NCBI RefSeq assembly: GCF_019649055.1
Contig: NW_026570249.1
Location: 1,240,001 to 1,304,000, forward strand
Direction: 5' to 3'
From: Paramacrobiotus metropolitanus
Lineage: Eukaryota; Tardigrada; Eutardigrada; Parachela; Macrobiotidae
DNA length: 64,000 bases
Shown here: positions 1,902 to 42,897 of the stretch, one piece after another
Layout of the letters: the number at the start of each line of letters is the position of its first letter
Position numbering within the stretch: the stretch's first letter is position 1
Position numbers and translations under genes: made by a program
Notes under the pieces: generated by a model
What the model saw: the letters and a program-made list of their open reading frames with translations, nothing else
What the model was told of the DNA's origin: nothing
Database searches by the model: none

Positions 1902-4900
1902 GATGAACCCAACCCGAACGAGTTGGAAGGGACGAGAGTTCATTAACAAGCACGTCCATGAAATGCTGGACCAAGGCGTCATTGAACCGTCCATGGCAGC
2001 GTGGAGTTTCCCATTGGTCCTCGCTTCGAAGAAAAACGGCGACGGAACCATGGGCACCCGGTTCTGCATAAAATACATAAAGCTGAACTCGGTGACCAAA
2101 AAGAATAATTATCCATTGCAAAATCCAGACGAACTTCTGGATCAGTGCGCAGGAAACGCCTACTACGGCAAGGTAGATTGTCAGTCCGGATTCTGGCAAA
2201 TCCCAATGGACCCAGCGTCCATGGACTACACTACCTTCGTGACTCCAGAAGGGATGTTCCGGTTCAAACGAATGCCGTTTGGCGTCTGCAATGGACAAGC
2301 CACATTCCAAATGACCATGGACAAGATAATGGCGCCAGCACGCAAGAAAGGCGGCGTCTTCGCATACATCGACGACGTGATATTCTTCGGCAAGACCTTC
2401 GATGAATTCAGGCAAGCGTTTAGAAATACGCTCATCTGCCTGCGGGATGCCGGATTCACGATAAAACCGTCGAAATGCGAATTCGGAATGGAGAAACTCC
2501 AATTCCTTGGACACATCCTCAGCAAGGACGGTGTCCATACTGACCCAGAGAAGGTTGCGGCCATCGCCGAGAAACAACCGCCCAGGACTGAGCGCCAACT
2601 TCGCTCATTCCTTGGACTCGCCAACTACTATCGGAAGTTCATTCTGGGCTACGCCCAGAAAACTTCAAAGATGTATGAACTCCTGCGGAAGGAAAGTTCG
2701 GTCAAAGATGACTGGACTGACGCCCACACCGCCGAGTTCAACGAAATTAAGAAGGCCCTAACGGAAGCCCCAATTTTGGCCAAATTCGATGCCACCAAAA
2801 AGACCACCATCGAATGTGATGCAAGTGGCGCTGGCATCGGAGCCATACTCAGCCAGGACTCTAGGCCAATCGCCTACGCAAGTCGTGTCCTACACGGAGC
2901 TGAGAAGAACTACGGCGTCACCGAATGGGAATGTCTCGCCGTAGTGTGGGCCGTCCAAAAGTTTAAACACTACATCGATCACGGACCTTTCACAGTAAGG
3001 ACGGACCACAGAGCCCTGACCAACTTGCTCAGATGCGAGTCCAACCGGCCCGGCATCAACCCTCGTCTTACTCGATGGGCCCTTGCCCTACAGGAAAGGG
3101 ACATCACCATTGAGTACAAGTCAGGCACTTTCTGCGACAACGCCGACGCGTTGTCCAGATGGCCACTCGAACGGGACGACGATAAAGGCCCACATGAAGA
3201 GATGGACCAGGTCCCTAACCTCGAGGATTATAAAGACGAGATTCCAGCCTGCGTCATAAGGGTGCGACGGCGGCAAGTAACCGATGAGGATCCCACAGAC
3301 GAATGGGAAACACCTCTCCTTCCTGATTGTAACGCAATCAGTGATTGGAACGAATTCAGCACGGCGGACATACGGGTCATCAATGTTCCGGCGCCCAAAC
3401 CGGATGAACCGGACCCCGTTGTCCCACCGTGTCCAGAGAAAGTAACGGACCGCACCGCGCAAGAAGTGCGACGGATGCAGCATCGGGACCCAACCCTGGC
3501 CAAGAAGGTCTATGAGTTGGAACACCAGACCGAAATGGATAAAAGGTCCAAACTCCCTGAACACTACCAGATAGATAACGGTGTGCTCTACCGACTCACC
3601 GAAATCAATGCCAAGCTCGAACGGAGACTTGTCATTCCACTCTTCATGCGGAAAAATATTATCCAGTCCCTCCATGACGGAAAAACAGGGAACCACTTTG
3701 GATACCGCAAGACCATTGAATCCGCCAAGCTCAGGTACTACTGGGACCGTATGAGCAGCGATATACACGACTACATCGACCGATGTCAGACGTATATCTT
3801 CGGCAAAGTACCGCGGCGAGCTACCTACGGTAAGCTGCAGCCGACTGACGCTGTTGCGCCTTGGTACCGCGTCTTCGCCGATTTCAAAGGACCATTACCG
3901 GTGACGGAAACCAAGAAGTACCGATACATCGCCGTAGTGGTCGAACAGATGACGAAGTTCACCATAGCTCGGCCGACCAAAACAAATTCGGCCAAAGAGT
4001 TTGAGAAGTTCTTCGTCGAGGAAGTTGTCCTCAAGTATGGCATGCCACATACAATGCACTCCGACCGGGGCACGCATTTTACGGCAAAATCCTTCGCCAA
4101 AGTGGCGAAAATCTTCGGCATCGAACAAACGTTCGGTTCCGCTTATCACCCGGAGGGCCAAGGCCAAGTCGAACGCCAGATGCAAACCATCTGGGATGGA
4201 ATTCGTGGCTTTGGCGGAGCTGGCGACGAACATCGCTGGCACCGGGCCTTACCTTACGCGATTTCCGGCATGAACCGTGCCGTTCACGCAACCACTGGAT
4301 TCTCGCCATACCACATGCTGTATGGACGGGAAATGACCATACCACAAGACGTCCTCGCTGGGACCAACGTCCCAGAAACATTCACGACTAACGAACGTTA
4401 CGTCCAGAGGATGCAGCAGCGCCTGAACCGGGCGCTTGAAATCGCGAAAACGCGCATCGAAGAAGGGTTCCTGCGGGATGCGGCCATCTACAACAAAAAG
4501 AAGGCCCAGGCCGAGTTCAAGAAGCGGGACTTGGTCACCCTGAAGAACATGGTGGATGACCCGACCAACCCAAACAAGTATGAGGGCATCTACATCATCC
4601 TCGGAATTCCTAAGCCAAACACTTACTGGATCCGAGAGCGAGACACCGGCGAAGAGCTTACCGTATGTGTCGACCGCTTGAAGCCGTACCTAAACCCGGA
4701 CGGCCCAAGTCGCCGGATTACCCGTTCAACCAAAAAGAAGGGCGGCGACGCCGAACCCGAACCTACGGAGTCGGGACGGTGCAAAGACCAGACAGAGTCG
4801 GAAGGTGCAACAACCACACTTGAGAAGCTGCTGAAGAAGCAAAAGCCCGGAAAGGGCCCTTCAAAGAAATTTGTGGAAGAGCAGCAAAAGACTCTGAAGA

Positions 4901-5376
4901 TACCTGGCTTTAAAGGGCCCGAACCAGAATCTGAAGACCCGGCCCCAAAACGTGGCCGTGGCCGGCCTCGGAAGACCAAACCGGATTTCGAGACGCCAGC
5001 CTTGACCAAACTCCAGAACCAGCCATTAGCCGTCATCGACCTAGAGTCAGTACCTGCGGAACCCGATAAATCAACAGCCGCACCTGACAAGTCCAAACCA
5101 GAACCCAAGCCAAGTCTACCAAGTCAGAGGCTGCCTGAAAAGCCAAAAAGGCCAAAGACACATAAAAAGCCGAAGGCAACCCTTACGGCTCAGCAGGTCC
5201 TAGAAGAGGACAAAGTTGCTGACGATGAGGCAGACAAAGACCTTCTCACCCGCATAACTGTGGGCCGAGAAAAATCAGAGCAAAGCTTAACCAGCAAAAA
5301 GCAGAAGGCTAATACGCTCGAACCGGGCGTATTGGATAAGACGGTTGATAAGGCTGGACAGAATGACTTAAAATAA
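1726..5376 (+). CDS. pol: Pol of element A: RT, RNase H, integrase, AT-hook tail
   Basis: Ty3-type polymerase, opening just after a TAA at 1723 in the +1 frame of the preceding ORF, so translation needs a +1 frameshift or another device. Residues are counted from the GTG at 1861. RT has D106 in VDCQSGFWQ and YIDD at 169-172. RNase H shows D320 (ECDASG), the conserved Glu in TEWECLA and D382 (RTDHRAL). The integrase zinc knuckle has H605, H612 and C642, but the fourth ligand is Tyr645 instead of Cys. The D,D35E core is D674, D735, E771. A tail of about 230 residues follows, with a GRGRPRK AT-hook near 1031, PDFETPAL, and a terminal block LTAQQVLEE / EADKDLLTRIT. B and C share this tail. No chromodomain is visible. 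Confidence 0.92.
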   Translation: MRAHIANAHFGDHLTEERTALLRQDLWELRAIFPTSKKPYGDVKGVTHVIEVGDAAPIKMNPTRTSWKGREFINKHVHEMLDQGVIEPSMAAWSFPLVLASKKNGDGTMGTRFCIKYIKLNSVTKKNNYPLQNPDELLDQCAGNAYYGKVDCQSGFWQIPMDPASMDYTTFVTPEGMFRFKRMPFGVCNGQATFQMTMDKIMAPARKKGGVFAYIDDVIFFGKTFDEFRQAFRNTLICLRDAGFTIKPSKCEFGMEKLQFLGHILSKDGVHTDPEKVAAIAEKQPPRTERQLRSFLGLANYYRKFILGYAQKTSKMYELLRKESSVKDDWTDAHTAEFNEIKKALTEAPILAKFDATKKTTIECDASGAGIGAILSQDSRPIAYASRVLHGAEKNYGVTEWECLAVVWAVQKFKHYIDHGPFTVRTDHRALTNLLRCESNRPGINPRLTRWALALQERDITIEYKSGTFCDNADALSRWPLERDDDKGPHEEMDQVPNLEDYKDEIPACVIRVRRRQVTDEDPTDEWETPLLPDCNAISDWNEFSTADIRVINVPAPKPDEPDPVVPPCPEKVTDRTAQEVRRMQHRDPTLAKKVYELEHQTEMDKRSKLPEHYQIDNGVLYRLTEINAKLERRLVIPLFMRKNIIQSLHDGKTGNHFGYRKTIESAKLRYYWDRMSSDIHDYIDRCQTYIFGKVPRRATYGKLQPTDAVAPWYRVFADFKGPLPVTETKKYRYIAVVVEQMTKFTIARPTKTNSAKEFEKFFVEEVVLKYGMPHTMHSDRGTHFTAKSFAKVAKIFGIEQTFGSAYHPEGQGQVERQMQTIWDGIRGFGGAGDEHRWHRALPYAISGMNRAVHATTGFSPYHMLYGREMTIPQDVLAGTNVPETFTTNERYVQRMQQRLNRALEIAKTRIEEGFLRDAAIYNKKKAQAEFKKRDLVTLKNMVDDPTNPNKYEGIYIILGIPKPNTYWIRERDTGEELTVCVDRLKPYLNPDGPSRRITRSTKKKGGDAEPEPTESGRCKDQTESEGATTTLEKLLKKQKPGKGPSKKFVEEQQKTLKIPGFKGPEPESEDPAPKRGRGRPRKTKPDFETPALTKLQNQPLAVIDLESVPAEPDKSTAAPDKSKPEPKPSLPSQRLPEKPKRPKTHKKPKATLTAQQVLEEDKVADDEADKDLLTRITVGREKSEQSLTSKKQKANTLEPGVLDKTVDKAGQNDLK

Positions 5377-5576
5377 TTAAATTGGCTTAAAATTTTAATA
5401 TTGGTCACAGCCAACGCTGCAGTCCCGCTATCTTAACTAACTAACCTTAACTTTTATGGATCGGTCGCATATCTGACATAGGTAGCTTAGAAGTAGCTAA
5501 CCTATAACGCTAAACTAACCCTAGGTAGGAGTCTAACGTAGCTTAATTGGTCTCGCAACAGTGTCCCCACAGAACC
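5377..5576 (+). promoter_or_regulatory. Pol-ORF3 spacer with candidate 3' splice acceptor
   Basis: A 200-nt AT-rich spacer containing several CTAAC strings (possible branch points, e.g. in GTCTAACG near 5532). CAG acceptors follow at 5559-5561 and 5570-5572, immediately before a good-context start (ACCATGG, ATG at 5577). Element C has a better acceptor at the same position. The likely role is to create a spliced subgenomic RNA for ORF3; this is inferred from context. Confidence 0.5.
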
Positions 5577-7325
5577 ATGGAAGGACGACGACGCACCGAC
5601 CGCTCTGACGACTCCGACCGAAGCGGCCGATCACATCCTTACTTAAGACCGGAATCCCGGTCTGGCAGATCTTCCACTCGGTCGTCCAACCGGCCACCGA
5701 GTGTTCAGGTACCGAATATCAGAGCTAACTTAACTGCTGAACAGCTGGCCAACTTGTCAGTCGGACCCGGACCACGGGCTGATACACCGCTACCGCGGAG
5801 TCAGCCCATGCCACCTCGGGCCATCCCGCCGCAATACTGGCCACCAGGGACATTCTCCGATGATACCGAACTCCTGGTCAATGCGGCAGCAGCCAGCAGT
5901 CAGCCAAGCTCTTCGTCGGGCCGAACGGTCCGACATATGCCGCGTGGCCCAACAGGCCCGCGACCAATCTTGTATGGTGGTCAATCGGCCAACCAGCCGG
6001 TCACTACGACAGTAGCAGTCGGACCAACGGTCCAGACTCCGCCGGCCCATACTGGGCCGAGGCCACGCTACACTCCGCCGCCATACTACAACCCAAACTT
6101 CGGATATCCACCGTATCCTGCGCCTGGACCTTCGAACCAGCCGCAGCCGGACCAGAACCAGTGGCGATTCCCACCACCGTGGACATATCCGCCACTACCC
6201 TATGGATATCCACCGCCCTACGGCGGTTATGGCGGATACGGCGAACCGCCGTATGATTCTTCTGCGGAAGAACTTGAACCTACGGTTCAAGAGCCGACTG
6301 AACCTTCATTACCGGTCCCAGAACCGGGACTTGAGGCATTCCGAACGGAACAGCCGCAGCCATCCCAGCCAACCACATCGGGTAATCGCGATATGCGCGA
6401 CTTCCCATTACGGGTATTTGTGGATGGCGTATACACTGTATACCACCGGCCAGAAGATGTTCCACCAGCAATGGCGGCCCAACTCGGCCTTATTGAACCG
6501 GACCCGACTGCAGGGCCAGCACCAAACCCGGTGTTGGCCGGGCGTGACCAGACTGTCCCACCGACAGAACCTGTGTCATCGCCGCCACCACCACTAATCA
6601 CGGACATCGAGGACATGATTGAACCGGTGTCAACGCCATCACTGCGGTCTGAATCCCCGGACGAACCATTGGCCGATGGCAGAACTCCACTCTACATTCT
6701 GCAAGAGAACCTTGCGGAAGTAGAGAACTCCATAAAAGAACTGGAGCAAATGATCCGCGGATTTAACATCCAGGACCCTCACCAACGTGACTTGGTCAAG
6801 CGGATTATCAAGGACCAAGATGAGTTCAGACGCTTAGCACGTGAACTCAGAGAAGAAATCGCACTCCGGCAGGCCCAGCACGAAATATTACCGTTGCATG
6901 ACCAAACCGGTCCGGCCCTGCTGGAGGCAGCTCGTGAAATGAGATGGCAGCTGGAACAGCATAGGATGGCGCACGAATTCCGGATAAGAAATTCCGTACC
7001 ACCGGCGCGCCCACCGCCAGCGCCATCAGCACCACCTCAGCCGCTGAACCCAACAGTCGTAGTAACCGCTACGACAGGGGAAACCTCAGCCGCACCAATG
7101 GCCCCACCCGCGCCAATCGACGCGGCAAGGGCCACTGGCTTACAACAGCGTGACCCAGCCTCATCCCCGTATGACTTACGGGCCAACCTGGACTTAATGC
7201 CCCTGGACCGTGAACTTCACGCGGCAGAGGCCTTAACGGAAGAAATCCGTACAGTTATCCGTGGCCTAACCGGCACGGACATAGCCACCATTCGCAGAAG
7301 AGTTGCCCTGGAGGCGGAACTTTAA
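5577..7325 (+). CDS. ORF3 of element A: Pro/Tyr-rich accessory protein
   Basis: A protein of 582 residues starting at the ATG in ACCATGG behind a splice-acceptor-like site. The N-terminal part is Arg/Ser-rich and is followed by a short block conserved in C (ANLTAEQLANLSVG against ANITADSLAGLTVG, then LLVN). A Pro/Tyr/Gly-rich region near 165-230 contains two PPPY motifs (6075-6086 and 6210-6221), which match the PPxY late-domain pattern. A helical, coiled-coil-like stretch lies around residues 370-450. No enzyme motif is visible. Coding-like sequence continues after the TAA. I do not recognise the family; a structural or Gag-like role is only a guess from the PPxY motifs. Confidence 0.7.
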   Translation: MEGRRRTDRSDDSDRSGRSHPYLRPESRSGRSSTRSSNRPPSVQVPNIRANLTAEQLANLSVGPGPRADTPLPRSQPMPPRAIPPQYWPPGTFSDDTELLVNAAAASSQPSSSSGRTVRHMPRGPTGPRPILYGGQSANQPVTTTVAVGPTVQTPPAHTGPRPRYTPPPYYNPNFGYPPYPAPGPSNQPQPDQNQWRFPPPWTYPPLPYGYPPPYGGYGGYGEPPYDSSAEELEPTVQEPTEPSLPVPEPGLEAFRTEQPQPSQPTTSGNRDMRDFPLRVFVDGVYTVYHRPEDVPPAMAAQLGLIEPDPTAGPAPNPVLAGRDQTVPPTEPVSSPPPPLITDIEDMIEPVSTPSLRSESPDEPLADGRTPLYILQENLAEVENSIKELEQMIRGFNIQDPHQRDLVKRIIKDQDEFRRLARELREEIALRQAQHEILPLHDQTGPALLEAAREMRWQLEQHRMAHEFRIRNSVPPARPPPAPSAPPQPLNPTVVVTATTGETSAAPMAPPAPIDAARATGLQQRDPASSPYDLRANLDLMPLDRELHAAEALTEEIRTVIRGLTGTDIATIRRRVALEAEL

Positions 7326-8332
7326 CGCCTCCTGGCATACCAAATCCAGCTGCGGAAGGCCATACTACGCTGCATGGAGAAGCCATTGGACACCGGTAAC
7401 GCCGGACCACAAACACGCGACTCCCTTAACCGCAGATACCAGCGTGGCCTAATCGACCGAGCACTCCAACGAGTGCTGCCTAAACCCGACCGGGGCAGGC
7501 GACACGAGGAGTTCATCCTGGACTCCTAACTTCGTCCTCAGACCGTCGACTGGCGGAAGAGCTGAGAGATAGATTCAGGCGCATCATGCAAGTCTCAAAC
7601 GAGACACTTGCAGCGGGACCAGCATTTAACCGGCCAGCTACTCCGTCTCAATCGGACGCGGACACTGAAAGCGACATTGAATGGCTAGACATGCCCGCCC
7701 CTATCCCTCTACCAGGACTTGTGGCTCCGCCAGATCACACAGTTGCGCCAGAACGGCGAACCCAACCGAGGCCACACCAACTGGAGCCACCACCAGAAAT
7801 AGCGGAGCGCCTGGAACTCATTATGCGAGCCACAACGGCTCAGTCCATCACTTCCAGAACCGGCGCCATTGCCAGCATCATCTAACTGGCAGAACCCACT
7901 GAATCGGGCCGCCGAGACCTCTACGACCAATGGCGAGAGGAGGAAGAAGCCCGGCGCCGAAGAAGATTAACCGGATTGGATACAGGCACATTCCAGATGA
8001 CGATTCCAGTGGCGATACGAGTCAGAACCCTGATTCGAGACGCCGAGGATATATATCGTCACCTGTTCAACCGCATACGGGACCTCAGCCCATTCGACCC
8101 AGAAGCGGTCCGGCTGACCCACCAGCAGCAGAGCTCTGCTCAGGGAACCCACCGGGTAGCTCTGCTCAGGGAACTTACACCGAACAACACGATGCCTACC
8201 GGCGATTCGTTGGTTGTTGTGGAGCATACCATAAGATGGCTCCGCACATTCGTCGAAGATTACTGGAAAGTCCAACGACATGGCCCGCCACCAATGGAAC
8301 GCCCAGGTGACTTTGATCCAGTGAATGAATAG
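7326..8332 (+). pseudogene. Broken continuation of ORF3 (helical domain), element A
   Basis: Beyond the TAA at 7323 the ORF3 frame continues as plausible Arg/Leu-rich helical protein to about 7528. The reading then moves by one frame and runs to 8332, broken by a TAA at 7883-7885 and a TAG at 8330-8332. The helical segment around 8010-8290 (LIRDAEDIYRHLF, later a helix ending FVEDYWK) resembles a segment of C at 53950-54215. In-frame continuity on both sides of each stop, plus the match in C, indicates mutated codons and not true gene ends. Confidence 0.6.
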
Positions 8333-11239
8333 CGACCAGATCCAGTGGCCGCGCCAACGGCGTCGACCACTGCGCAAGCACCGGTTGCCTCAACATCGGC
8401 GGACCCAACTTTGGTCCAAGCCCCAACAGTGGCCCCAGCACCAACCGCGCCTGGGCCAACACCAAGCCAACCTGTGGACACTGCTGAAACCGCTACCGCG
8501 GACGTTAGCATGGAGATTCCACCACAGGACACCGAAATGGACGTGAGTTTGCTCGACAAAACTTTCGAGCTCTCGCCGGAAAAACAGGCCCAACCAGAGC
8601 CAGCACCAGTCCAACCGGATGGTGCACCGGTAAGTCCAATGGTAGTAGATGAGCCAACGGTTTCATCAGACACCACGCCCACGCCAAACCGAATTGAAGG
8701 CGATACATCAGGCGGCACTTTGGTCGTCCGTTCAACGGACAGGAAATCGACCGGAGGAAAGCCAGCCGAAAGAACGGCCACCCCAGTTACAACTGGAGGG
8801 CCACAGTCGCCTAGGTTCACCAGGAAGAAACGGACTCCTCCAGAGGCAGAGGAGCCGCCTTCGCAACGGTCACTCCCAGCATGGAGAGGGCCACCGATGG
8901 ACTTGGAGCTGAACCCAAATCCCAGGCCCACTCCTCCCGCGGGGAGTGGTTCATCAATGGACTTGGAACGCCCCGGCCCTACCAGGCCCGGGCCACCCAT
9001 TCTTAAACTGGCGGCCAGAGAACAACCGACTTTGGTTCTTCGCGGTCTAACGACCAAGAAGAAGAAATCACCGCCAAAGAAGTTCCCAAGACAGGGCCAA
9101 GTGCTCTCACCACCAGAGGAGCGGCCAATCCCATCGCGAACAACGGCACCTTTACGGGACGAGCCTCAAACGAGGCATCGTATACGGCTGACCCCACCGG
9201 GCCCAACCAGCCAATATCAATTGGACCTGCATAACGAACTCGTAAGCGAAATCATAGAAGTTGATCTACGCTTGAACCTGACCGAAGAGGACACGCGCCA
9301 GCGGATCCGCGCAGGCGATCCGATCCTGACCGAACACGAGATTGACCGCACCAACCGGAGCTGTCAATTACTGGTCCAGGAGCGGAATATCCTCATCCGA
9401 AGACTTAGGGCTATGCCAGGCAAAAGCCAGGCCCTCCGCCAGCGCCAACTGCCTGGCGAAATCATCGAACACGCGATATACATCAGAGGGCCACATATTA
9501 ACCCAAGAGCTTGGACAGTGGAACCACGCCCAAGACCGGGCCAGCCAGTGGAAGACCAACTCCCACCGGAAGAGGTCCAAAGTGATGAGGAAATCCCTCA
9601 ATTCCCGGCAGCCGATTACGGCGTTCTGTCCAGCGAGGACGAAGAAGATTTGGACAAAGATGTCCAACGTGTCCTGTATGAGACCGTGAGGGATAAATCT
9701 CCTCTACCGAGGAGATCCCCTCGCAAAAGTCTGTCTCCCGAAAAACGGACTTCTACTGGCCGCGCCACATCACAACCAGCGCGCATGCCGAGTATGCCGG
9801 CCCCAGGACCACCGCCTCCCCGGTTCACACCGAGCCGGCCAGGCAAATCACCAGAGAACGAGAAGATGGACACCTCATCTTCTCAACAGCCGGTCATGAC
9901 CATAACGGTGGAACGGATTCCGCCACCAGCACCTGTGGCCCCTGAAACGGCAAAAGCCAAAGTCGTCATTGAGCTTCCGACCGAACAGGTGGAAGCTGAC
10001 TCGGCCTTGATGCCCATGAGTGCCCTCACTCCTACGGAGCAGAGACACCTTGTGGCCCATGCCGAGCACAACGACCGACGGCAATATCCTTACCTCCTTA
10101 AGAAGAGACAAGAGGCTAAGGACCAGAACAAGCCGGAAGACTACGAAATGCTCACTGAAATGCTCCGCAGACTGGTGATTAGAATGGTGGAAGATTACTG
10201 GAACCGAAGGCGCAGACGTCTCTTCCCATCACCGGAGAAGGACCCAAAGATGGCCGAACGGCTATCATCAACAGCACCGACAGTGGTGCCACCTAAGGCG
10301 CAAGCGCCCCCAGAGCCGGAACCGATGGACACATCCCCATCAGGGCCAGTTGTGGTTACACCACAAGCTGAGCCAACACCGGGACCATCAAAGGCCAAAA
10401 CCCCACCAAAGGCACCAGCTGACCAGAGCCAAGCAGGAACAGGCCCAACGGCCATTGTTCCAACTGTCTTGCCAACCATGCCAGCCAGAGTGGATGACAT
10501 CCCCTTTGGCCAGCCAGTATCCTTCCCTATAACAGGGACATTAGAGGACTTGGCACTTGGCGCACAAGTAATTCACTCGGCCAACTCACAAAGAGGCAAA
10601 CAGTCGAGAAAAGCCAAGAAACCAGAGAGGGCCAAACCGGCCTCTCGTCCAACATCCCCTCAACCGAGTGGGAGCCGGGCGGACACATCGCGGCCACCAG
10701 TAAACCCAGAGGCCGAAAGGAACCGCCAAAAGAAGGAAGAGACCAAGGCCAAGAAAACTCGTGAGGCCAAAATCGCCCAGCTTGAGAAACGGCTGTCAGG
10801 CGACGAAGATGTCCAGGTCCTATCGGACAGTCCGGACAAACCAGGGCCATCACAACCTCTGGCACAACCAAGGCCAAAACCTCCACTCCCAGAAGGATAC
10901 AAGGACGAAGACTTCGAACCGGTCCCCGATGAAGATACGCAGTCGGAGGAAGTCATACTCCCATCACCTTGGGACGACGAAGCTGAACTTCCCGACCCAG
11001 GACCAGAAGCCACCCACATCGAAATCCCAGCGGGTTACGCTGAACAATGGGTGGCACTGGCCAGAATCATGAGAAGGGAAACGGGCCGAGACTTATATCA
11101 GTGTTCTTCGGACCCGTATGGCACTCGGCGAAGAATTCACAGGACTCCCGCTCGCGGACCGCACACTGACGGCACCCTTTATGCGGCGGGTGGTCACTCT
11201 TATCCTGGACTCAGGACTGCTGGTTCGCACACATCGTGA
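8333..11239 (+). CDS. ORF4 of element A: large Pro-rich protein with two helical domains
   Basis: A frame of about 965 residues, open directly after the TAG at 8330. Most of it is Pro/Thr/Ser-rich and probably disordered. Two helical domains are conserved in C. The first, at about 9215-9520, contains a run of charged helices and INPRAWTVEPRPRPGQP (C: INPAVYIREPPLEPGQP, 54696-55343). The second, at about 10020-10220, contains MVEDYWNRRRRR (C: 55620-55870). An acidic patch with SSEDEED lies near 9630. The last 50 or so codons read into the next conserved domain in the wrong frame, which marks a frame change near 11080. Function unknown; the arrangement suggests a scaffold or structural polyprotein. 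Confidence 0.65.
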   Translation, partial: RPDPVAAPTASTTAQAPVASTSADPTLVQAPTVAPAPTAPGPTPSQPVDTAETATADVSMEIPPQDTEMDVSLLDKTFELSPEKQAQPEPAPVQPDGAPVSPMVVDEPTVSSDTTPTPNRIEGDTSGGTLVVRSTDRKSTGGKPAERTATPVTTGGPQSPRFTRKKRTPPEAEEPPSQRSLPAWRGPPMDLELNPNPRPTPPAGSGSSMDLERPGPTRPGPPILKLAAREQPTLVLRGLTTKKKKSPPKKFPRQGQVLSPPEERPIPSRTTAPLRDEPQTRHRIRLTPPGPTSQYQLDLHNELVSEIIEVDLRLNLTEEDTRQRIRAGDPILTEHEIDRTNRSCQLLVQERNILIRRLRAMPGKSQALRQRQLPGEIIEHAIYIRGPHINPRAWTVEPRPRPGQPVEDQLPPEEVQSDEEIPQFPAADYGVLSSEDEEDLDKDVQRVLYETVRDKSPLPRRSPRKSLSPEKRTSTGRATSQPARMPSMPAPGPPPPRFTPSRPGKSPENEKMDTSSSQQPVMTITVERIPPPAPVAPETAKAKVVIELPTEQVEADSALMPMSALTPTEQRHLVAHAEHNDRRQYPYLLKKRQEAKDQNKPEDYEMLTEMLRRLVIRMVEDYWNRRRRRLFPSPEKDPKMAERLSSTAPTVVPPKAQAPPEPEPMDTSPSGPVVVTPQAEPTPGPSKAKTPPKAPADQSQAGTGPTAIVPTVLPTMPARVDDIPFGQPVSFPITGTLEDLALGAQVIHSANSQRGKQSRKAKKPERAKPASRPTSPQPSGSRADTSRPPVNPEAERNRQKKEETKAKKTREAKIAQLEKRLSGDEDVQVLSDSPDKPGPSQPLAQPRPKPPLPEGYKDEDFEPVPDEDTQSEEVILPSPWDDEAELPDPGPEATHIEIPAGYAEQWVALARIMRRETGRDLYQCSSDPYGTRRRIHRTPARGPHTDGTLYAAGGHSYPGLRTAGSHTS

Positions 11240-11564
11240 CTGGACCAGCATGGCAGAAATCCATGTGGCCCATCGGCCATCTGGACTTTCCCGTAGCAGG
11301 GACAACACCTTTCAACAGGTCTGCCGAGCCATTGGGTATCTACATGACCCAAGAGGCTCTCCTTTGATGGATATAGCCAGGACAATCAACGTCCTTTACT
11401 ACCAGGGAACGACGAACCCATGGGATCTCAGCGACCAGTTAATCAACGAAATACTGGCTTGGGTCAGAGATGGTGTCCTGGAAACCACTAATGCCTTCCG
11501 CGCCGAACCATTACGCTTCGCTGTCCCGGGATTTATCCCACAGAAGACCCAACGGTCTCTGTAG
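11073..11564 (+). CDS. ORF4 C-terminal conserved domain (AIGY/VPxFIP), element A
   Basis: This frame overlaps the end of ORF4 and holds a compact domain of about 150 residues, rich in helices, with DWTS, VCRAIGYLHD and RFAVPGFIP. The C copy at 56755-57245 has SWDT, IVRAIGYYRS and QYTVPDFIP in the same order and spacing. That conservation across two diverged elements says the domain was selected. It ends at a TAG (11562) with coding-like sequence continuing in frame. No family recognised. Confidence 0.6.
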   Translation, partial: EGKRAETYISVLRTRMALGEEFTGLPLADRTLTAPFMRRVVTLILDSGLLVRTHRDWTSMAEIHVAHRPSGLSRSRDNTFQQVCRAIGYLHDPRGSPLMDIARTINVLYYQGTTNPWDLSDQLINEILAWVRDGVLETTNAFRAEPLRFAVPGFIPQKTQRSL

Positions 11565-12152
11565 GTGTCGCACGACATTGACACCAGATGGGACTCGAGC
11601 AGAAGGAAAGCGGTTGGAGCGAAGGCCAAAGACCTAAAAGGCAGGGCCAAAGAGGCATACGACATGACCCAACTGGCCAAGCTGCCTGGCCCAAAGAACC
11701 TGGCAAAAGAAAAGCCACCGAGACCATCGGTAACTCGGAGGGAGAACGCCTTCCGAAAGGAACAACAGGAGGCGCAGATGCGCGCGACAGGCCAACGGCC
11801 CTCGCCTCGGGACACTGTGTCACTGCCTAACGCAGCTGGCCGGTCCCGACCTCCCTCACCAGCCCCATCAGCCACTTCAATAAAGAGTCGAAAGACTACG
11901 GCCAAGAAGGGGCGTGGCAAGAAATCACCGACCCCGCCACCCTCTGACTCGGATTCTGAGGACTCCAACCCAGAGGACTCGGAAGAAGATGAAGAAGAGG
12001 ATGAACCGGATCAGGACATGGCATCCCAGAAGTCCGACTCTGAAGACTCTGACGACGATGACCAGAGCCCTGGCAAACTGACTATCAATGTCCCACCAGA
12101 CCATAGTGTGGAAATCCCTCCAGGTGACGAAAAACCAGGCACCTACCGGTGA
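11565..12152 (+). CDS. Basic/acidic linker segment of element A
   Basis: It continues the previous frame directly after the TAG at 11562-11564. An Arg/Lys-rich start is followed by a Pro-rich part and then a strongly acidic Ser/Asp/Glu tract (SDSDSEDSNPEDSEEDEEE). The C copy keeps the same basic-then-acidic layout at 57250-57930. It looks like a disordered connector between the AIGY domain and the winged-helix ORF. It overlaps the next ORF by 65 nt in another frame. Probably part of a longer protein in the intact element. Confidence 0.5.
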   Translation: MSHDIDTRWDSSRRKAVGAKAKDLKGRAKEAYDMTQLAKLPGPKNLAKEKPPRPSVTRRENAFRKEQQEAQMRATGQRPSPRDTVSLPNAAGRSRPPSPAPSATSIKSRKTTAKKGRGKKSPTPPPSDSDSEDSNPEDSEEDEEEDEPDQDMASQKSDSEDSDDDDQSPGKLTINVPPDHSVEIPPGDEKPGTYR

Positions 12153-13068
12153 CCAGAGCATGGAGGATCAGAGTGGCGCACAGGGCGCCCAACAAGAACA
12201 CGAAGGCAGCATGGAAAGCGCCCAATCCAGCGGAAGCGCGGCACCGCCCGACCCAGTTGTCCGACAAGTGAGGGACACGTTCTCTCCGGAATCGGACTCG
12301 GCCGAAGTGCACCATACTCTGCCAGACCCACACCCAGCCAAGCCACGCATCGGCTACGTTTCGCCACCGCCACCAAAGGTGGCCAGGAAGTGGCCAGGTG
12401 GAGATCCATCCAAGAAGATGAAGATCTCCAACATGGATAAAGGATGGGTATATGTGAAGGCTGCCTTACAGGCGTTGTCCCAAACGGGCACATTTTTCGC
12501 CACAGGCGACCTGGCCTTCCAGCTCATTGAGAAATGGGAGGGCCCATGGCTTTCCAAATCCAAAGTGAGGCAGTATGTCCAGATGGCATACAATGAAAGA
12601 GTCATGCTGCGGACCCATATGCCCAACGGCGACATTTTCTACACCTTCCCACCGGAAAATCGTGACGCAGCCCCTCAAGGATACTGGGAATGGCGCAACG
12701 CCGTTCTCACCGTACTGACCACTACACCGTACTCCCTTGGCCTCACTCGTGGAGAAATCGCCAATCAAATGCTGGGCCATTATCAGCTTTACTATATGGC
12801 GCACCACCCGCAACTGGTGGATGGAACGGAATATGCCTCGGGCGAAGGCCGGACCATAGGCTTATTCCCCATCTTCGAGGACGTCAGACACGTCGTCAAG
12901 AAGATGTTGCGCGAAGGATGGCTCGACCAAACGGTTGATGAGCCAGAGGCCCAGCAGCGCTACAGAAAGCGACAAGACCCACCTGACCGTTATGGCCCTC
13001 GTCCTGCTGACACACCCACTCTGGCTTCCACAAAAAAGAAGCAGAAGCGAAAGTCCTACCACCAGTGA
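12088..13068 (+). CDS. ORF6 of element A: predicted tandem winged-helix protein
   Basis: A 326-residue ORF starting at ATG 12088. After a disordered acidic N-terminus (about 115 residues) comes a folded region. Unit 1 begins GWVYVKAALQAL, has a second helix (GDLAFQLIEKW), a recognition-like helix (VRQYVQMAYNERVML) and a hairpin wing ending IFYTFP. Unit 2 begins WRNAVLTVL and ends VRHVVKKMLREGWL. The helix-helix-helix-wing order in both units suggests two winged helix-turn-helix domains, so a nucleic-acid-binding role is plausible; this is inferred from pattern only. The C copy (57967-58848) keeps GWVHVHAALKAL, YYVFP and the second unit. It ends just before the ORF7 acceptor. Confidence 0.65.
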   Translation: MSHQTIVWKSLQVTKNQAPTGDQSMEDQSGAQGAQQEHEGSMESAQSSGSAAPPDPVVRQVRDTFSPESDSAEVHHTLPDPHPAKPRIGYVSPPPPKVARKWPGGDPSKKMKISNMDKGWVYVKAALQALSQTGTFFATGDLAFQLIEKWEGPWLSKSKVRQYVQMAYNERVMLRTHMPNGDIFYTFPPENRDAAPQGYWEWRNAVLTVLTTTPYSLGLTRGEIANQMLGHYQLYYMAHHPQLVDGTEYASGEGRTIGLFPIFEDVRHVVKKMLREGWLDQTVDEPEAQQRYRKRQDPPDRYGPRPADTPTLASTKKKQKRKSYHQ

Positions 13069-13214
13069 CCCGGCTCAGAACTTGCATAGGGCATAGGGGG
13101 GGACGGGTTGTAAAATTCATAGGGACGTAAAATTATAGGACGTAATTACCATAGGGACCAGTCCTACCGGACTTTATCAGCATTCTGCATGTTCCATTTC
13201 TGTTACCACAGAGA
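13069..13214 (+). promoter_or_regulatory. ORF6-ORF7 spacer with 3' splice acceptor
   Basis: A spacer of 146 nt with CATAGGG repeats and one TACC-loop hairpin (13160-13173). It ends in a pyrimidine-rich run (GTTCCATTTCTGTTACCACAG) with AG at 13210-13211, just 3 nt before the ORF7 ATG at 13215. This is a textbook metazoan 3' splice site layout and implies that ORF7 is read from a spliced RNA. No donor was identified. Confidence 0.55.
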
Positions 13215-14684
13215 ATGGGACTGACTCCACAGCAGAAGTATGACTCGGGATGTGCGGACTGCAGATGCAACAGTTTGGACGTGTCCGGCCGGAGGGAAAA
13301 CTCCCGACGGGAGTATTTTCCCTGCGCATACCACTTGCGACCCGGGTTCCGTGACGAAGCGGAAAGAGCCTACTGCTTCTACTTGGAAGTAGTCAGAGGC
13401 AACTTTGATGCGTACTGCCACATGACCAGCCGCGATGGACGCCACCTGATCCCCCTACTGAGGGATCATGAACAGATAGAGATCCACGATCTCTATATGC
13501 ACCGCAGCGGCGACAGACAACTTGGCTGGAGCAGTGCAGGAACTCAACCGCCAATCCTCAGCCAAACGGCGTTGGACAAGAAGGCGGAACGTGACTTCGA
13601 TCGTATGCGGTCCCGTAACACGGGTTCTGACCGCTCATCAGGGCGCGGCCAAACGGCCGTCCCGAAAACTCATGACCAGTCCCATCAGCGCCGGCCATCG
13701 CCAGGCACTCGGCCCCACGGGCATGAGGTGTCAACTTCCGCGACATGTGACCAGTTCATGGCCACTATCAATAGCCAGATGGTGGACCTCGTGGCCAAAC
13801 AGCTGATGCAAGGCGGACTTTTGGATGCCTTAAAAGGCCAGTATGACCCGGCCCGTGCTCAACAGCACGCGCCAGCACCATTGGCACCACTACCGCGGCA
13901 GCCAGATGACTTGCGCCACTTCATCGAAACTCGACACCAGGACCAGACCGGCCAACCGAACCGGGGCCGTCCTCAGGAACGCGAGCCGCCAACGCGGACC
14001 TCGCCCGGGAAACGTAACGAGGACGAAAGCCTGGTCGTCTCCCGCACCAATAAGCGGCCTGAGCGAACCGTTAGCTCAGTGGCCCAGAACATCAGCATCC
14101 ATGTCCCAATGGACACGGATCCAGCACCGCCGTCATCGGACCCACCGGCCCGATCTGACGTCAGCACCACTACAGCGGACTTCCACCCATACAAGTATGC
14201 GGCCGACCAAGGCGTCAACATCCGGCCACGTCCCCATCGGGAGGTGACAGATTACATTATGAAGGCCATTCCGTACCCGCGGACCAAATGGGCTCAGATT
14301 GACGCCATCATCCAAGACTTGCAAAATTTTGTCAAGTCGTCCGGACTCGAAATGGAATTCCAGCGAAAAGACTGGCCACACACCTTTAATATGGATGAAC
14401 CCATCGCCAACCGTGAAGGCTACCCGATCGTCCGCAGTAACGCACTATCGTGCGCTGCGGATGTCAACCTGTTGGGTGAGCCCATTACACGTCCGGACTG
14501 GAATGACTTGTGCGAATTGCACATCCGGGATGACCAGTTGGATGTCTTCAAGTACCTGGCTCAGTTCGTCCTACCGGATGCGAACGCCAGTTTCCTGGTC
14601 ACAGCAGCACGGGCCGCAATGCGTATCCCGTGCAGACCGGAAAACTACGCAGAGGCCCCAACGGGTACTTATGCGTATACTTGA
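13215..14684 (+). CDS. ORF7 of element A: CxxC zinc module plus helical domain
   Basis: A 489-residue ORF starting at ATG 13215 behind a strong acceptor. The N-terminus has GCADCRCN and, about 25 residues later, YFPCAYH, then a helix and GNFDAYCHM. The copies in C (CQMC...LPCAEC, GNLSAYIYL) and B (CPDC...YPCWTC, GNLSVFRGV) show the full CxxC...CxxC pattern, so this is probably a zinc ribbon or finger. A Pro/Gln/Arg-rich middle follows. The C-terminal helical domain at about 340-480 (TDYIMKAIPY, RPDWNDLCELH, FLVTAARAAMRIP) matches C at 60480-60740. The stop is a TGA at 14682 with in-frame continuation. A Gag-like or nucleocapsid role is possible but unproven. Confidence 0.7.
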   Translation: MGLTPQQKYDSGCADCRCNSLDVSGRRENSRREYFPCAYHLRPGFRDEAERAYCFYLEVVRGNFDAYCHMTSRDGRHLIPLLRDHEQIEIHDLYMHRSGDRQLGWSSAGTQPPILSQTALDKKAERDFDRMRSRNTGSDRSSGRGQTAVPKTHDQSHQRRPSPGTRPHGHEVSTSATCDQFMATINSQMVDLVAKQLMQGGLLDALKGQYDPARAQQHAPAPLAPLPRQPDDLRHFIETRHQDQTGQPNRGRPQEREPPTRTSPGKRNEDESLVVSRTNKRPERTVSSVAQNISIHVPMDTDPAPPSSDPPARSDVSTTTADFHPYKYAADQGVNIRPRPHREVTDYIMKAIPYPRTKWAQIDAIIQDLQNFVKSSGLEMEFQRKDWPHTFNMDEPIANREGYPIVRSNALSCAADVNLLGEPITRPDWNDLCELHIRDDQLDVFKYLAQFVLPDANASFLVTAARAAMRIPCRPENYAEAPTGTYAYT

Positions 14685-15164
14685 AACGGCACGGTCATCC
14701 GCATCTTCGCGGCCAGACTTGGCCATTTGCGAAGCCATTGGGAACTTGAAACTGCCTATCGGCAGGGGAAGATCATCCCTCAACTTCTCACCCAGGTGGC
14801 CCTGCTCGGAAACCAGATCCATGAGATCGAGGCAGGAGTCAAGATCCAGAGCGCACTGAATACCTTCAGACGCCGCGCCAATGACTACAGCTACCGCGAG
14901 CCAAAGGACCACGATGATGCAGCCGAATCGTACGTTAACCGAACGGCGGCGCGAAAGCTTCCAACGAAGTTTCGCTCCCAGCGCTCGGCGGCATCGTCCA
15001 CGCAGCGCCAGTCCCCGGCCAACCAAGAGGCCCAGCCGGCCAGCGCCTCCGGTCAGCAAAACACGACCGAGCAGGAAATGGCGGAATATGAAGAAACCGT
15101 CGTCGACCCACTGAACCCAGATGGGATCGGCGAGAGCCATGACCAAGGAGACGCGCAGGAATAG
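14685..15164 (+). CDS. ORF8 of element A: C-terminal continuation of ORF7
   Basis: It is in the same frame as ORF7, separated only by the TGA at 14682-14684. It begins with a segment containing IFAARLGHLRSHW, which matches IFAARLGHHHSHF in C where the two parts are closer to continuous. It continues as helices and then an Arg/Gln/Ser-rich acidic-ended tail. The first ATG-like start is a GTG/ATG cluster after 14727, but homology starts before it. I read ORF7+ORF8 as one protein interrupted by a mutated codon or a readthrough stop. Confidence 0.6.
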   Translation, partial: NGTVIRIFAARLGHLRSHWELETAYRQGKIIPQLLTQVALLGNQIHEIEAGVKIQSALNTFRRRANDYSYREPKDHDDAAESYVNRTAARKLPTKFRSQRSAASSTQRQSPANQEAQPASASGQQNTTEQEMAEYEETVVDPLNPDGIGESHDQGDAQE

Positions 15165-15480
15165 GCCAGCGGCCATTCGTGCATGTCGGCCCTGAACCCG
15201 GACCGACATTGGCCTGAACCGGAACCACCACCATGGGTACAATCTAACGGTTGTTACCCTTGCCCAATAAACGTGGCTTACGGCCATGCAATGTCAACCT
15301 TACTGAACCAAAATCCCTGGACCTTAACCGGATTCCCCGGATTGGCTCTGGCTTAGCGGCTGGGACCATGAATTTGGCCTGGCCATCCCAGACCATCCGA
15401 CGGAGTCCACCGGACCGAACTTGGCGCGAGCTAAGTTCCCCGGCATGGAAAAGATCCAGCGCCCAAAAGGCGGCGACGGC

Positions 15481-15676
15481 CCGCATAGAAGTTGCGGTAA
15501 CCCGGTGGATCAGTCCTGGCCCGCATAGAGTTTGCGGTAATCCATGGACAAGTCCTGGCCCATAGAGTTTGGACCAGGCCCGCTATGTGTCTAACGGCCG
15601 TACGCGGCTCACGAGTCTAGTTGCCATACTACGCAACTGGGACCAGTGAATTAAGGGAGCCACATAGAACTTGTGG
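15481..15676 (+). repeat. Three hairpins with TAGARNT loops and compensating stems
   Basis: CCGCA/TGCGG stems enclose TAGAAGT (15481-15497) and TAGAGTT (15521-15537). A third copy, CCACA/TGTGG around TAGAACT, lies at 15660-15676. The G-C to A-T change is made on both sides of the third stem, so base pairing is kept while the sequence changes. Confidence 0.7.
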
Positions 15677-15714
15677 TACGCCCACTTTGCATGCAACGCC
15701 TGTGATAAGGGCAG

Positions 15715-15800
15715 AGGCCCAGAGGACCGCCCAGAGGCAAAACCAAAGAATCCACCGCCCAGAGGCAAAATCAAAGACTCACCGCCCAGAGGCCAAATGA
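15715..15800 (+). repeat. Repeated CCGCCCAGAGGCAAA phrase
   Basis: Three near-identical copies of CCGCCCAGAGGC(A/C)AA start at 15727, 15755 and 15782. A related CCCGCCCAGAGGCAT lies near 17450. Each contains a GCC-CAGA-GGC mini-stem. The same 15-mer occurs once in the C 3' region at 62653-62667, so it is a shared feature of the family 3' end. Confidence 0.65.
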
Positions 15801-16059
15801 AGATCTTCCTAGTCAGCAGACCGGATACTCCGTGGTAAACGCCTACCGGGGCCCACAACTTAATTTTTGGAGTTTGGCCAGGCCAACCTGATGTTTTCGT
15901 CAGAGCCACTTAATTTTTGTTATGGCCACGGTCTCAGGAAAGCCTACCTGACATGGTATCTGCCATTCGCCTATCGGACATGGTAGCTAACTCATGGCCC
16001 ACGGCCAGGGAGATGGACCAGATTCAACGAATCTGCAACTTTGGCCCGCCAATTACCTT

Positions 16060-16340
16060 GGCGCGCCATGATGGCCCGCCATTTACCTCGGACAGACGAA
16101 AATCGACTAAGTCCATTTTGGCCCGCCATCAACCATGGACCGCCGACAAAGCGACTAAGCCCATTTTGGCCCGCCAAACGGCGTGGACCACTGAAAAAGC
16201 GACCAAACCCATTTTGGCCCGCCAATTACCTTGGCGCACCATTATGGCCCGCCATCCACCGTGGACCGTCGAAAAAACGACTAAGTCCATTTTGGCCCGC
16301 CAAACGGTGTGGCCTGCCGAAAAACAACTAAGTCCACAAC
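16060..16340 (+). repeat. Tandem repeats around CCATTTTGGCCCGCCA
   Basis: Units of roughly 48 nt, some compound, begin CCATTTTGGCCCGCCA and continue with a GTGGACC...GAAAAAGCGAC phrase. Four full-length starts are visible between 16110 and 16330, with looser copies upstream. Units differ by scattered substitutions, as in an ageing minisatellite inside the element 3' region. Confidence 0.7.
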
Positions 16341-16449
16341 GGAGAGCCAAAGCCGGCCATACAGGACTTTCAAGTCCCGCAACAGCCAGAGACACATCTC
16401 GCCATGCAGGAGCCACAGATCCCGCCTGAGGCATACCAGAGACCGAGAT

Positions 16450-16850
16450 TGGACCGCCCTACCGGGTTTGGTCCATCACACCACTTCGGTCATGGGACTT
16501 AGAAATTTTCCCATTATGGCCCTCTTGGACTTAGAAGATATTTGGCCCGAGATGCATGACCCAACCGGGGTGCACTCGAACTTTAACTTTTTTGGCCCGA
16601 GGCGCATGACCAAACCGGCATGCAGGGCCAAACCTGGCCAAAGTGGACCACCCTAACGGGACTGGTCCATTGCACTCATTTGGATAGCAGGAGCACCCCT
16701 CCCGCTCAGAGGCACCGTTTATAAGCCTTTATGGCCGCCCAACCGGGTTCGGTCCATTCCATATCTGACATGGAGCACCACTCCTGCCCAGAGGCCATAC
16801 CTAAGGACCTTTTACGGACCGCCCAACCGGGACTGGTCCAACATACTAGG
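16450..16850 (+). repeat. Four dispersed CCC-NANC-GGG...TGGTCCA units
   Basis: Units near 16457, 16650, 16737 and 16820 share CCGCCC(T/A)A(A/C)CGGG, a few bases, then (T/C)GGTCCA. The CCC/GGG arms can pair around a 3-4 nt loop. Between them lie CTCAGAGGC/CCCAGAGGC phrases. They are part of the family-wide habit of short hairpins. Confidence 0.55.
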
Positions 16851-16862
16851 AAGGGGACAAAC

Positions 16863-17853
16863 TGTCCTTGCGAAAGCAACAGTGCCTTCCATACTTACCG
16901 CTGAACTACTCAACTGGAAACTGTGGACATCAATGGGAACCGTCGCCCCAGATCCACAAGACCAGGCCAATCCTACCGGATTTAAGCGGACCGTTGACTA
17001 GGACCCGTGTGGACAGAATTTGCCCTGTGGTACACCTAGTCGGAATAAACCTTATTTTGTCTAGTTTTTTACCAGACCTGGTTTTTGTAGACTTATTAAC
17101 CAAAGAAATTGATGTTCTCATTTAGCCTACTAACCAAAGGAATTGGCTTTGGGATCTCTTACTTATGATCTTAATTGTGATCTTTTATTTCGATGTTTAA
17201 CTTGAGCCTTATAAACTTTATTTTTTTACTTTATCGACCGAAGAAGCCTCATCAACTACCACACTGGAACCTCCAACACAAAGTGCCCTCCAGATTTCGG
17301 CCGTTCGGTGCATGCACCGCGGGTCTGGATACAGCGGCCCTACCGGGCAAGAGACAAAGTGGCATCCGGCCCTACCGGGTATCGGATCCTGGCACCCCAC
17401 CGGGTTGGCCAGGGGCAGAGTCGGGACGGTGCTCGCAGGAGCTCACACTCCCGCCCAGAGGCATGTCAGAGACCGCTCACTCGAGGCGGTAGACACCTCT
17501 TGTGGCTTGCTCTGTCGCCCGCACGCTTATGGCCACGCCATTCGTGCCGCTCATATACGCTGATAACGTCAGCGTATACTTTGTCTACGCTGACCAATCA
17601 GCGCATCGCTATGCACTTTTGGAGGTGTGGCCCAGCGCTTACGAGCGATCCCATGCTTTGCGGTACCAGCTGTGATTCAGCTGCAGCATGCCGCGGCATT
17701 ATCACGATTTACACCGAGCTCGCTGGCAGCCACTTTCCACACAGCTTTTCCGCATTGGTTTTCTGTGTTGTTTTTGTTGGTTGCTTTATTGCTTCACAAT
17801 AAAGGAGAGATCTTTGCTTCCATTTTCTCCCTGCTTCTGTGTCATATCTGACA
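16863..17853 (+). repeat. Candidate 3' LTR of element A (991 bp)
   Basis: It starts TGTCC after a purine-rich run and ends ATCTGACA, giving TGTC...GACA ends. Inside are a CCAAT box (near 17591), a strong hairpin TATACGCTGA/TCAGCGTATA (17554-17578), a second CGCTGA/TCAGCG hairpin next to it, three TACC/CACC-loop mini-hairpins (17337, 17370, 17394) and AATAAA near the 3' end. The 5' LTR is outside the window, so the boundaries cannot be checked against a partner copy. Confidence 0.4.
17798..17803 (+). terminator. AATAAA polyadenylation signal
   Basis: A canonical AATAAA hexamer about 50 nt before the proposed LTR end, after T-rich sequence. It fits the polyadenylation signal of element A. Confidence 0.5.
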
Positions 17854-20110: not shown

Positions 20111-20758
20111 TTACAAGAAACTTTTTTTATCGACGCTAATTTCTTTGATGAAGTCATAGACGAAGTCTGCTGGTTGGTTGAACTCGTATTCTTCTATGTC
20201 CAGGTTATCTCGAACCCAATCTTTGTCGAACGGGCTTTTCGTCGAGCTGCCAGAACTTCCGCTTTGACCTTCCTTACTGTGACCGCTAGTTTGCGCGTCA
20301 CGACCTTTCGATCCTGTTTGCCCTTTACTATGCTGGTTATTGATCGTATAATTGATTTTCTTAAATCCTTCCGCGATGCGTTTTTCTTCTTCCGCTTCTT
20401 GGCGACATTTCTCTTTTTCGTCTCTTTCACGACGGATGCGGTCATCATCCCTTTTCTTCTGTTCAGCGGAACGCGTGTCTTTGGCATATCCTCGATCCTT
20501 GTCGTAACAATCAAAGTCCCGTGACCTTTCGCGTGACCTTTCGCGAGAGCGGTCCGATGACCTTTCATATACACGTGACCTTTTTTCTCCGTCGGCTGAC
20601 CTTCCTAAGCCCGACTGATATCTGTATTTTTCAGGGGATTTCGGACGTCTGAATTCATCTCTTTTGAAGTTTCGGAACGCTTGCGTAACTACTTCGGCCT
20701 CTTGCGCTCGGAATCTGCGCATCTTCTCAATCCGTTCTTCGACCGCGATCTTGATCAC
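20111..20758 (-). CDS. B ORF with RS repeats and charged helix
   Basis: About 215 residues on the minus strand. It begins with a helical, charged start (VEERIEKMRRFRAQEAEV), an RSRERSRERSRD repeat, a long Lys/Arg/Glu helix and a Ser/Gly/Gln-rich part, then an acidic end with DFVYDFIKEI. The last motif resembles TDYIMKAI at the start of the ORF7 C-terminal domain in A, so the downstream domain may have been lost here. RS repeats are typical of RNA-binding or splicing-linked proteins, but no RRM is present. Function not assigned. It lies just downstream of the other B ORF7 pieces. Confidence 0.5.
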   Translation of the reverse strand: MIKIAVEERIEKMRRFRAQEAEVVTQAFRNFKRDEFRRPKSPEKYRYQSGLGRSADGEKRSRVYERSSDRSRERSRERSRDFDCYDKDRGYAKDTRSAEQKKRDDDRIRRERDEKEKCRQEAEEEKRIAEGFKKINYTINNQHSKGQTGSKGRDAQTSGHSKEGQSGSSGSSTKSPFDKDWVRDNLDIEEYEFNQPADFVYDFIKEISVDKKSFL

Positions 20759-20773
20759 CAGTGACGATGGAAG

Positions 20774-21061: not shown

Positions 21062-21220
21062 CTTTAGGTGGCTCGAGCGTCGCTTCCCATCCAGGTTTTT
21101 TGTTGACCCAAGAACGAGCGGAAAAGTTTAATGAAGTTTTTATGTTGTTAATTTGTTTGTTTGTTAACTGATGTTTGTTGTTAATTTGTTTGTTTGTTAA
21201 CTGATGTTTTTAATTATTGA

Positions 21221-40516: not shown

Positions 40517-40686
40517 CCACCAGTCTCTTCTCTCTCTTTCTTTCCAGTAATCTTCCTTGGAAATTCTCGCATCTTGCGGTGACCTTTGTGGTAACCCTAA
40601 CCGGAGATGGTACCTGGATTGGAGATACCGGTGCGAGAATGGATGGCAACTAGGTTCGGCGAATCCAAACTACGCCAACATATTGA

Positions 40687-40917: not shown

Positions 40918-40922
40918 GGTCG

Positions 40923-41348: not shown

Positions 41349-41349
41349 G

Positions 41350-41642: not shown

Positions 41643-41644
41643 TA

Positions 41645-42895: not shown

Positions 42896-42897
42896 TA

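Follow-up and report, generated by a model that had tools for sequence, protein, structure and literature searches.

Giant Ty3-type elements of the tardigrade Paramacrobiotus metropolitanus with two selected genes after pol and an intron-like junction in two copies

In errantiviruses and other gypsy-type elements, a third gene (env) follows pol and is expressed from spliced RNA. More generally, elements with long terminal repeats (LTRs) can capture accessory genes. The Burro elements of planarians are giant Gypsy-like LTR retrotransposons of >30 kb (Grohme et al. 2018, as described in the available part of PMC6431247); according to the same excerpt, BIR, BCL2, MATH and Env-like domains are found in a 4,873-amino acid polyprotein, with the Env-like domain between gag and protease (PR). 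Plant LTR elements with extra open reading frames (ORFs) between pol and the 3' LTR are described in an excerpt of PMC7264820: the extra ORFs of Grande, Retand, RIRE2 and PvRetro13 are antisense, the env-like ORFs of Athila and Bagy2 are sense, some of the products are nuclear and splicing is reported for Bagy2. The available part of PMC11071193, on transposable-element libraries of two other tardigrade species, names Gypsy once. Here, a 64,000-nt stretch of the P. metropolitanus genome (the window, C29:1240001-1304000) was analysed together with the whole genome (169.8 Mb, 533 contigs). We consider it likely (probability about 0.7) that elements A, C and D of the window belong to one Ty3-type family with the layout LTR-gag-pol-X-Y-LTR, in which X and Y would be the family's own selected accessory genes and Y would be expressed through splicing. 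The layout, the selection, the lack of transmembrane segments in the copies tested and an intron-like junction in two copies are read directly from the sequence.

Genes X and Y after pol

Element A is a 24.8-kb Ty3-type LTR element, the type being assigned from its LTRs, a primer-site-like sequence and the Pfam order of pol. Its LTRs are 390 nt long and 99.7% identical (1 difference in 391 aligned positions), with the ends TGTCAGA...TCTGACA, and a 4-bp target duplication, TAAC, stands on either side; because the LTRs differ at one position and the TAAC flanks are kept, A is a recent insertion. The primer-binding-site-like sequence TGGTAGCAG, which we take to be primed from initiator tRNA-Met, directly follows the 5' LTR. 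RVT_1, RT_RNaseH, Integrase_H2C2 and rve were matched in A by Pfam. The order PR, reverse transcriptase (RT), RNase H, integrase (IN) is seen in copy C21 and, from RT onward, in A. The features of A are as follows, WH standing for winged-helix-like.

C29:1233022-1233411, outside the window (upstream): 5' LTR; gag and PR lie upstream too
3..5376, + strand: end of gag-pol (frames 3-1901 and 1726-5376), with PR-RT linker, RT, RNase H, integrase and pol tail
5577..13068, + strand: gene X, broken by in-frame stops and frameshifts
5577..5708, + strand: X leader, codons 1-44, apparently common to X and Y; conserved donor CAG/GTAC at 5708/5709
5709..13211, + strand: body of X as a putative 7,503-nt intron, up to the end of the acceptor TTTCTGTTACCACAG at 13211
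10991..11546, + strand: X segment WH1-2, holding AIGY...VPGFIP
12322..12987, + strand: X segment WH3-4, holding GWVYVKAALQAL; winged-helix-like by weak profile evidence only
13212..15164, + strand: gene Y; own ATG at 13215, Cys cluster from 13239
14157-14954, + strand: conserved core of Y; IFAARLGH at 14703, in-frame TGA at 14682-14684
15165..17463, + strand: 3' non-coding region; tandem repeats at 15478-15571, 15726-15798 and 16072-16225
17464..17853, + strand: 3' LTR, then the target duplication TAAC at 17854-17857

The seven ORFs after pol in A, which the first-pass annotation had taken for a set of selected genes, are two broken genes, X and Y. Selection on them was borne out (see below) and the number of genes was not. 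Nor is the accessory cassette of A intact: the genes are there, and their frames are broken by stops or frameshifts in spite of the recency of the insertion, mutation and assembly error looking alike here. A frameshift common to A and its nearest relatives was considered and rejected, as the positions differ from those of A. Between PR and RT of A lies a further conserved segment (~900-1721, ~270 amino acids); it was considered as a dUTPase, which was not confirmed, no Pfam or PDB profile matching. Rfam gave nothing that reached the gathering score.

Comparison of the window with itself by six-frame BLASTP gave six post-pol matches between A and C, all on the + strand and collinear, with 28-36% identity and E values from 5e-7 to 6e-33. 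The positions in A and C are:

9203-9601 / 54804-55199, + strand: A/C match
11166-11561 / 56834-57241, + strand: A/C match
12295-12987 / 57982-58692, + strand: A/C match, E 6e-33
13227-13556 / 59085-59399, + strand: A/C match
14358-14639 / 60455-60745, + strand: A/C match
14703-14963 / 60810-61076, + strand: A/C match

Identity elsewhere is 56-80% from RT to integrase, 42-43% in the PR-RT segment and 39% in the pol tail. The single order of post-pol blocks that had been noticed in A and C thus holds. The six motifs quoted for it were loosened to A/C patterns; in the three + frames, A and C contain each of them a single time and in matching order. That A and C are copies of a single insertion is refuted by their protein identity of ~30%. 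Element C, which is broken and belongs to another deep subfamily, comprises:

40569..61112, + strand: element C; gag-end fragment 40569-40914, PR from ~43198, pol to ~49391
49993-61112, + strand: remains of X and Y, from A/C matches and motifs
58093..58710, + strand: X segment WH3-4
58929..61112, + strand: remains of Y; Cys cluster 59097-59120, IFAARLGH 60810-60833

Copies with fewer breaks were then read across the genome. X is one frame of ~2,540-2,560 codons in A-like copies and Y has ~625-725 codons; the C-like copy C73 has an X of 3,010 codons and a Y of 772, and a D-like copy has 1,755 codons of X between pol tail and Y, and a Y of 915. The ranges among the copies read are therefore 1,755-3,010 codons for X and 625-915 for Y. 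The lists of genome matches hold the best candidates scored, and one copy may give several matches: 124 stretches matched one block and 148 another, and frames of at least 1,500 codons were found for 17/124 A/C-type and 23/150 D/E/F-type matches. For the E and F types, pieces of 0.65-0.7 kb were read. Neighbours were typed for the 60 best of the 124 X matches listed. The order pol-X-Y is complete in 41/60; a pol tail lies upstream in 44 (at 7.5-8.1 kb in 35 of these) and a Y core downstream in 54, at 1.3-2.3 kb, and no pol tail was found on the opposite strand within 14 kb (0/60). Pol tail and/or Y core are wanting in 19/60, and 10 pol-tail rows (two being one place) have a Y yet no X match; X is therefore sometimes lost, worn or missed by partial lists.

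The same order is found in three deep subfamilies (A-like, C-like and D-like). When scored against D-like proteins, the A/C-type Y profile reached 77.6 bits (best of 200 shuffles, 2.1) and the WH1-2 profile 37.9 bits (best of 200 shuffles, 5.7). Profile-profile comparison of WH3-4 between A/C and D gave E 7e-4 and a probability of 27%. The Cys cluster, AQFVL and IFAARL(G/C)H of Y occur in the rows of all three subfamilies; in the C21 row alone, a frameshift has removed the first Cys pair.

Searches with single blocks gave the 124 and 148 matches within the genome; the searches outside it that follow gave none for the X C-terminal block or Y. Protein searches with the C-terminal block (P0005 alone and an 11-row profile; the rest of X was not searched) found as relatives only two P. 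metropolitanus gene models. No relative of Y was found at E 0.001 among 7,878 protein candidates, nor were any relatives found in the viral contigs and prokaryote genomes scanned. These protein searches cover gene models, which often omit repeats, and length limits apply, so absence from other tardigrades is not implied. Gene model P0012 spans X from WH2 into WH3 and P0011 spans X WH4 into Y; both resemble pieces of X and Y, and one of them carries the name SETD1B-like histone methyltransferase.

Ratios of nonsynonymous to synonymous change (dN/dS) were calculated by NG86 between C21 and each of A, C23 and C6; those with C and C73 were left out, as synonymous sites had reached saturation in most of them. 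dN/dS was 0.04-0.39 for X blocks and 0.00-0.27 for Y blocks, against 0.02-0.06 for RT, 0.07-0.20 for RNase H-IN, 0.15-0.49 for the N part of gag and 0.28-0.57 for the PR-RT linker. Uncorrected ratios of the proportions of differences (pN/pS) for X and Y were 0-0.41 in 24/24 comparisons (p 2e-5 to 9e-57); as a control, two pairs were compared over the 3' non-coding region in each of three frames, and these six readings gave 0.60-1.09. Both ratios are averages over lineages and are no proof for any single copy. Purifying selection acts on the blocks of X and Y: dN/dS lies well below 1 in 30/30 X/Y comparisons, and values near 1 for all blocks were not seen (0-0.39). In this respect the first-pass view, of conserved and selected genes behind pol in a Ty3-like family, is upheld.

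Synonymous divergence between A and C21 shifts along the element (PR 0.24, RT 0.27, capsid part of gag 0.65), which suggests mosaic copies. The 3' non-coding regions of A and C21 (15165-17463 and L037:4800-6820) differ at ~0.12-0.16 per synonymous-type site in the aligned parts, and synonymous sites of X and Y at 0.43-0.66, far above this; either a conserved cis-acting region or recombination may account for the close 3' regions. In the long copies C23:233399-258354 and C6:2320797-2345319, the LTRs are only 84-88% alike and the flanks do not match, which would fit products of recombination between elements.

One reading of X and Y, which we regard as possible though on the unlikely side, is that they counter host silencing, through Piwi-interacting RNA (piRNA) or chromatin, and have no role in the particle. 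Their fast divergence relative to pol (~30% against 56-80% identity from RT to integrase in A/C) would fit, as would the Pro-rich regions with short conserved motifs that were seen by eye. Nothing direct stands against it; structural proteins with loose sequence constraint would be expected to look alike.

An intron-like junction and a short form

Two copies without X, C287 (87-92% identical to A) and C27 (~86% to C21), carry an identical junction, ...CCGAGTGTACAG/AGAATGGGACT, with the core GTGTACAG/AGAATGGG (a slash marks the boundary). The junction has the exact borders of a GT-AG intron; 7.5 kb of X are removed and Y is placed in frame with X codons 1-44. In full copies the donor CCGAGTGTNCAG/GTAC lies at X codon 44, where N is A (GTGTACAG/GTAC) in 41 cases and one of the other three bases in 13. 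The acceptor is a pyrimidine-rich stretch ending in CAG/AGAATGGGA, and CAGAGA precedes the Y ATG in 15/15 listed Y starts. The predicted spliced Y would begin MEGRRRTDRSDDSDRS...SVQ-R-MGLTPQ. In C73, from the other subfamily, a donor CCACAG/GTAACA and an acceptor TTGACCACAG/CC are of equal phase, and no ATG precedes the Cys cluster in its Y frame. Element C of the window has lost the donor GT, and no matching donor was seen in the D-like copy.

Y is probably made from spliced RNA, because the junction of the X-less copies equals a GT-AG intron and keeps the frame. The body of X would then be an intron, and spliced RNA would yield a Y starting with the first 44 residues of X, so that keeping or removing the intron would decide between X and Y. 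The short copy C27 is a complete 17.7-kb insertion, with LTRs at 930682-931070 and 947958-948346 that are 99.74% alike and flanks CTTT. From the X-less junction copies, one of them this complete and recent insertion, we infer that spliced RNA was packaged, reverse-transcribed and integrated at least once. A third copy of the junction was not found among the 40 scored of 139 candidates (200-base junction query). Another X-less copy, C24, was rejected as a spliced form, being an ordinary deletion with other ends.

X is also missing from element D of the window, by a deletion that is not at the splice sites. This element was considered as an ancestral X-less layout and rejected, since a longer D-like copy has the 1,755-codon frame between pol tail and Y. 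LTRs were not found for elements C and D or for copy C73. The remains of D are:

20114..21577, - strand: remains of Y, third subfamily
~33.4-39.6 kb, - strand: PR to integrase; pol tail to 32543

D is split in two by element B (22013-32542, - strand), a separate Ty3-type element with 413-nt LTRs that are 100% identical, CGTC flanks, gag, pol and a frame with a strong membrane segment. This frame is Env-like by the membrane segment alone; there is no Pfam Env match in it.

The junction could instead have arisen as a single recombination or template-switch deletion at a CAG repeat, then spread by conversion, Y being expressed unspliced from its own ATG. The junction is indeed flanked by CAG on either side, in A-like copies the acceptor is directly followed by an ATG belonging to Y, and X-less copies with other ends occur (C24 and element D). 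We nevertheless find this unlikely: the breakpoints coincide to the base with GT-AG borders, the acceptor is pyrimidine-rich, the frame is kept and the two copies are of different lineages. The Y frame of C73, without an ATG before its Cys cluster and with splice sites in the same phase, argues in the same direction.

Protein features and possible roles

In copies C21 and C73, neither X nor Y showed a membrane segment, the highest 19-residue hydropathy being 1.25, against 2.94 in the frame of element B. None of the Pfam families reached its cut-off in the post-pol frames of A, X and Y of C21, five frames of C or Y of C73. That Y, or X and Y together, is a worn-down envelope gene of errantivirus-like elements would suit the location after pol and the env-like third genes with spliced expression reported in the available part of PMC7264820, but it is highly improbable given that no 19-residue window exceeds 1.25 in two subfamilies. 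No Pfam Env family matched X or Y, which says little because the frame of element B gave no match either. Just as hard to credit is an origin of X and Y as host exons that were captured and are passive cargo, although capture of this kind is possible in general and there are two gene models of the host that overlap with parts of both: purifying selection and one layout in three deep subfamilies oppose it, and the gene models P0012 and P0011 look like fragments of element copies.

Linker_histone and RPA_C are winged-helix families. Linker_histone (PF00538) passed its cut-off in a D-like X piece (24.1 against 22.4 bits, a 59-residue segment of a 185-residue piece). RPA_C (PF08784) was listed for 7/11 rows of the X C-terminal alignment, six at 14.6-18.9 bits; in one A-like row, L006, it passed as a sum (24.5 against 22.6 bits). 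The host genome has one H1 match. These profile matches and a visible pattern make tandem winged-helix-like segments at the X C-terminus a lead, not a result. In copies C21 and C73, hairpin-like helical segments also seem, by eye, to be repeated within X and in the PR-RT linker.

Several observations weigh against the family reading set out at the start or parts of it. Splicing is read from DNA alone, the X-less copies with the junction are few (two), and that on C287 shows a 3' LTR only, its 5' LTR lying beyond the stretch covered. Three of the six readings of the non-coding control have p 0.005-0.011, so that it is not flat. The WH3-4 profile of A/C scored only 7.2 bits against D (best shuffle, 3.4). 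Linker_histone passed in one of five subfamily pieces, the other four giving nothing, and reached 21.7 bits, under the cut-off, when the same D-like protein was scanned whole. RPA_C has no single passing stretch in L006, and the best stretches sit at differing places. Against the X profile (hhalign), host H1 ranked second among itself and 500 shuffles, and PDB profile searches gave nothing below E 0.05.

On the favoured reading, of accessory genes with Y expressed through splicing, roles can be proposed with less assurance, and the structural or regulatory functions guessed in the first-pass annotation may be among them. X, with its length, its Pro-rich sequence and its possible small winged-helix-like segments at the C-terminus, may be nuclear and act on DNA or chromatin, tethering or compacting incoming complementary DNA or countering silencing. 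Y, with its Cys cluster and conserved helical-looking core, may bind nucleic acid and act as a partner in the assembly of particles or in the control of genes. A fuller picture, which we put forward as speculative and would not expect to hold in all its parts, is that of an undescribed giant Ty3 lineage in which the giant gene X would be a retained intron of Y, a single donor in X would give two proteins that share a 44-residue start, X would sit on host chromatin through winged-helix repeats, Y on element RNA, and the 17.7-kb short form would be mobile.

Comparison with known systems

A description of the pol-X-Y layout was not found in the open-licence literature on tardigrade retrotransposons or winged-helix/H1 accessory ORFs (titles and starts of abstracts), and we know of no element with two sense genes of such size and a common leader exon. 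The proposal of a non-standard, undescribed family therefore stands for the layout and falls for the category: since Burro is already known as a giant Ty3 element with extra coding, the layout is new and the category is not.

The family adds a further animal lineage, besides planarian Burro, with Ty3 elements that became giant and still moved. It offers two selected orphan proteins with many copies for comparison and, through the intron-like junction, an expression plan open to direct testing. If the short form truly derives from spliced RNA, it would allow the loss of accessory genes to be observed.

Single X pieces share with Linker_histone and RPA_C proteins a match over the Pfam cut-off, each in one C-terminal piece, but most pieces fail and X proteins have at least 1,755 residues. 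Errantiviruses resemble the family in having a further gene after pol and spliced RNA (here a prediction), and differ in that X and Y are without a membrane segment and the putative donor is placed beyond pol, within X, instead of in the 5' leader. The plant elements, as far as the excerpt describes them, are alike in their further ORFs after pol and in the splicing of Bagy2; the ORFs of Grande, RIRE2, Retand and PvRetro13 are antisense, whereas X and Y are sense. With Burro, within the part of the source available, the likeness is that of a giant invertebrate Ty3/Gypsy element with much extra protein coding and a conserved PR-RT segment, which is dUTPase-like in Burro and to which no such function was assigned here. 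No BIR, BCL2, MATH or Env-like domain was matched by Pfam before PR in the gag frame of C21 (1,226 codons). The tardigrade elements differ from Burro in that the extra genes follow pol, contain no firmly recognised domain and belong to an element of 24.8 kb.

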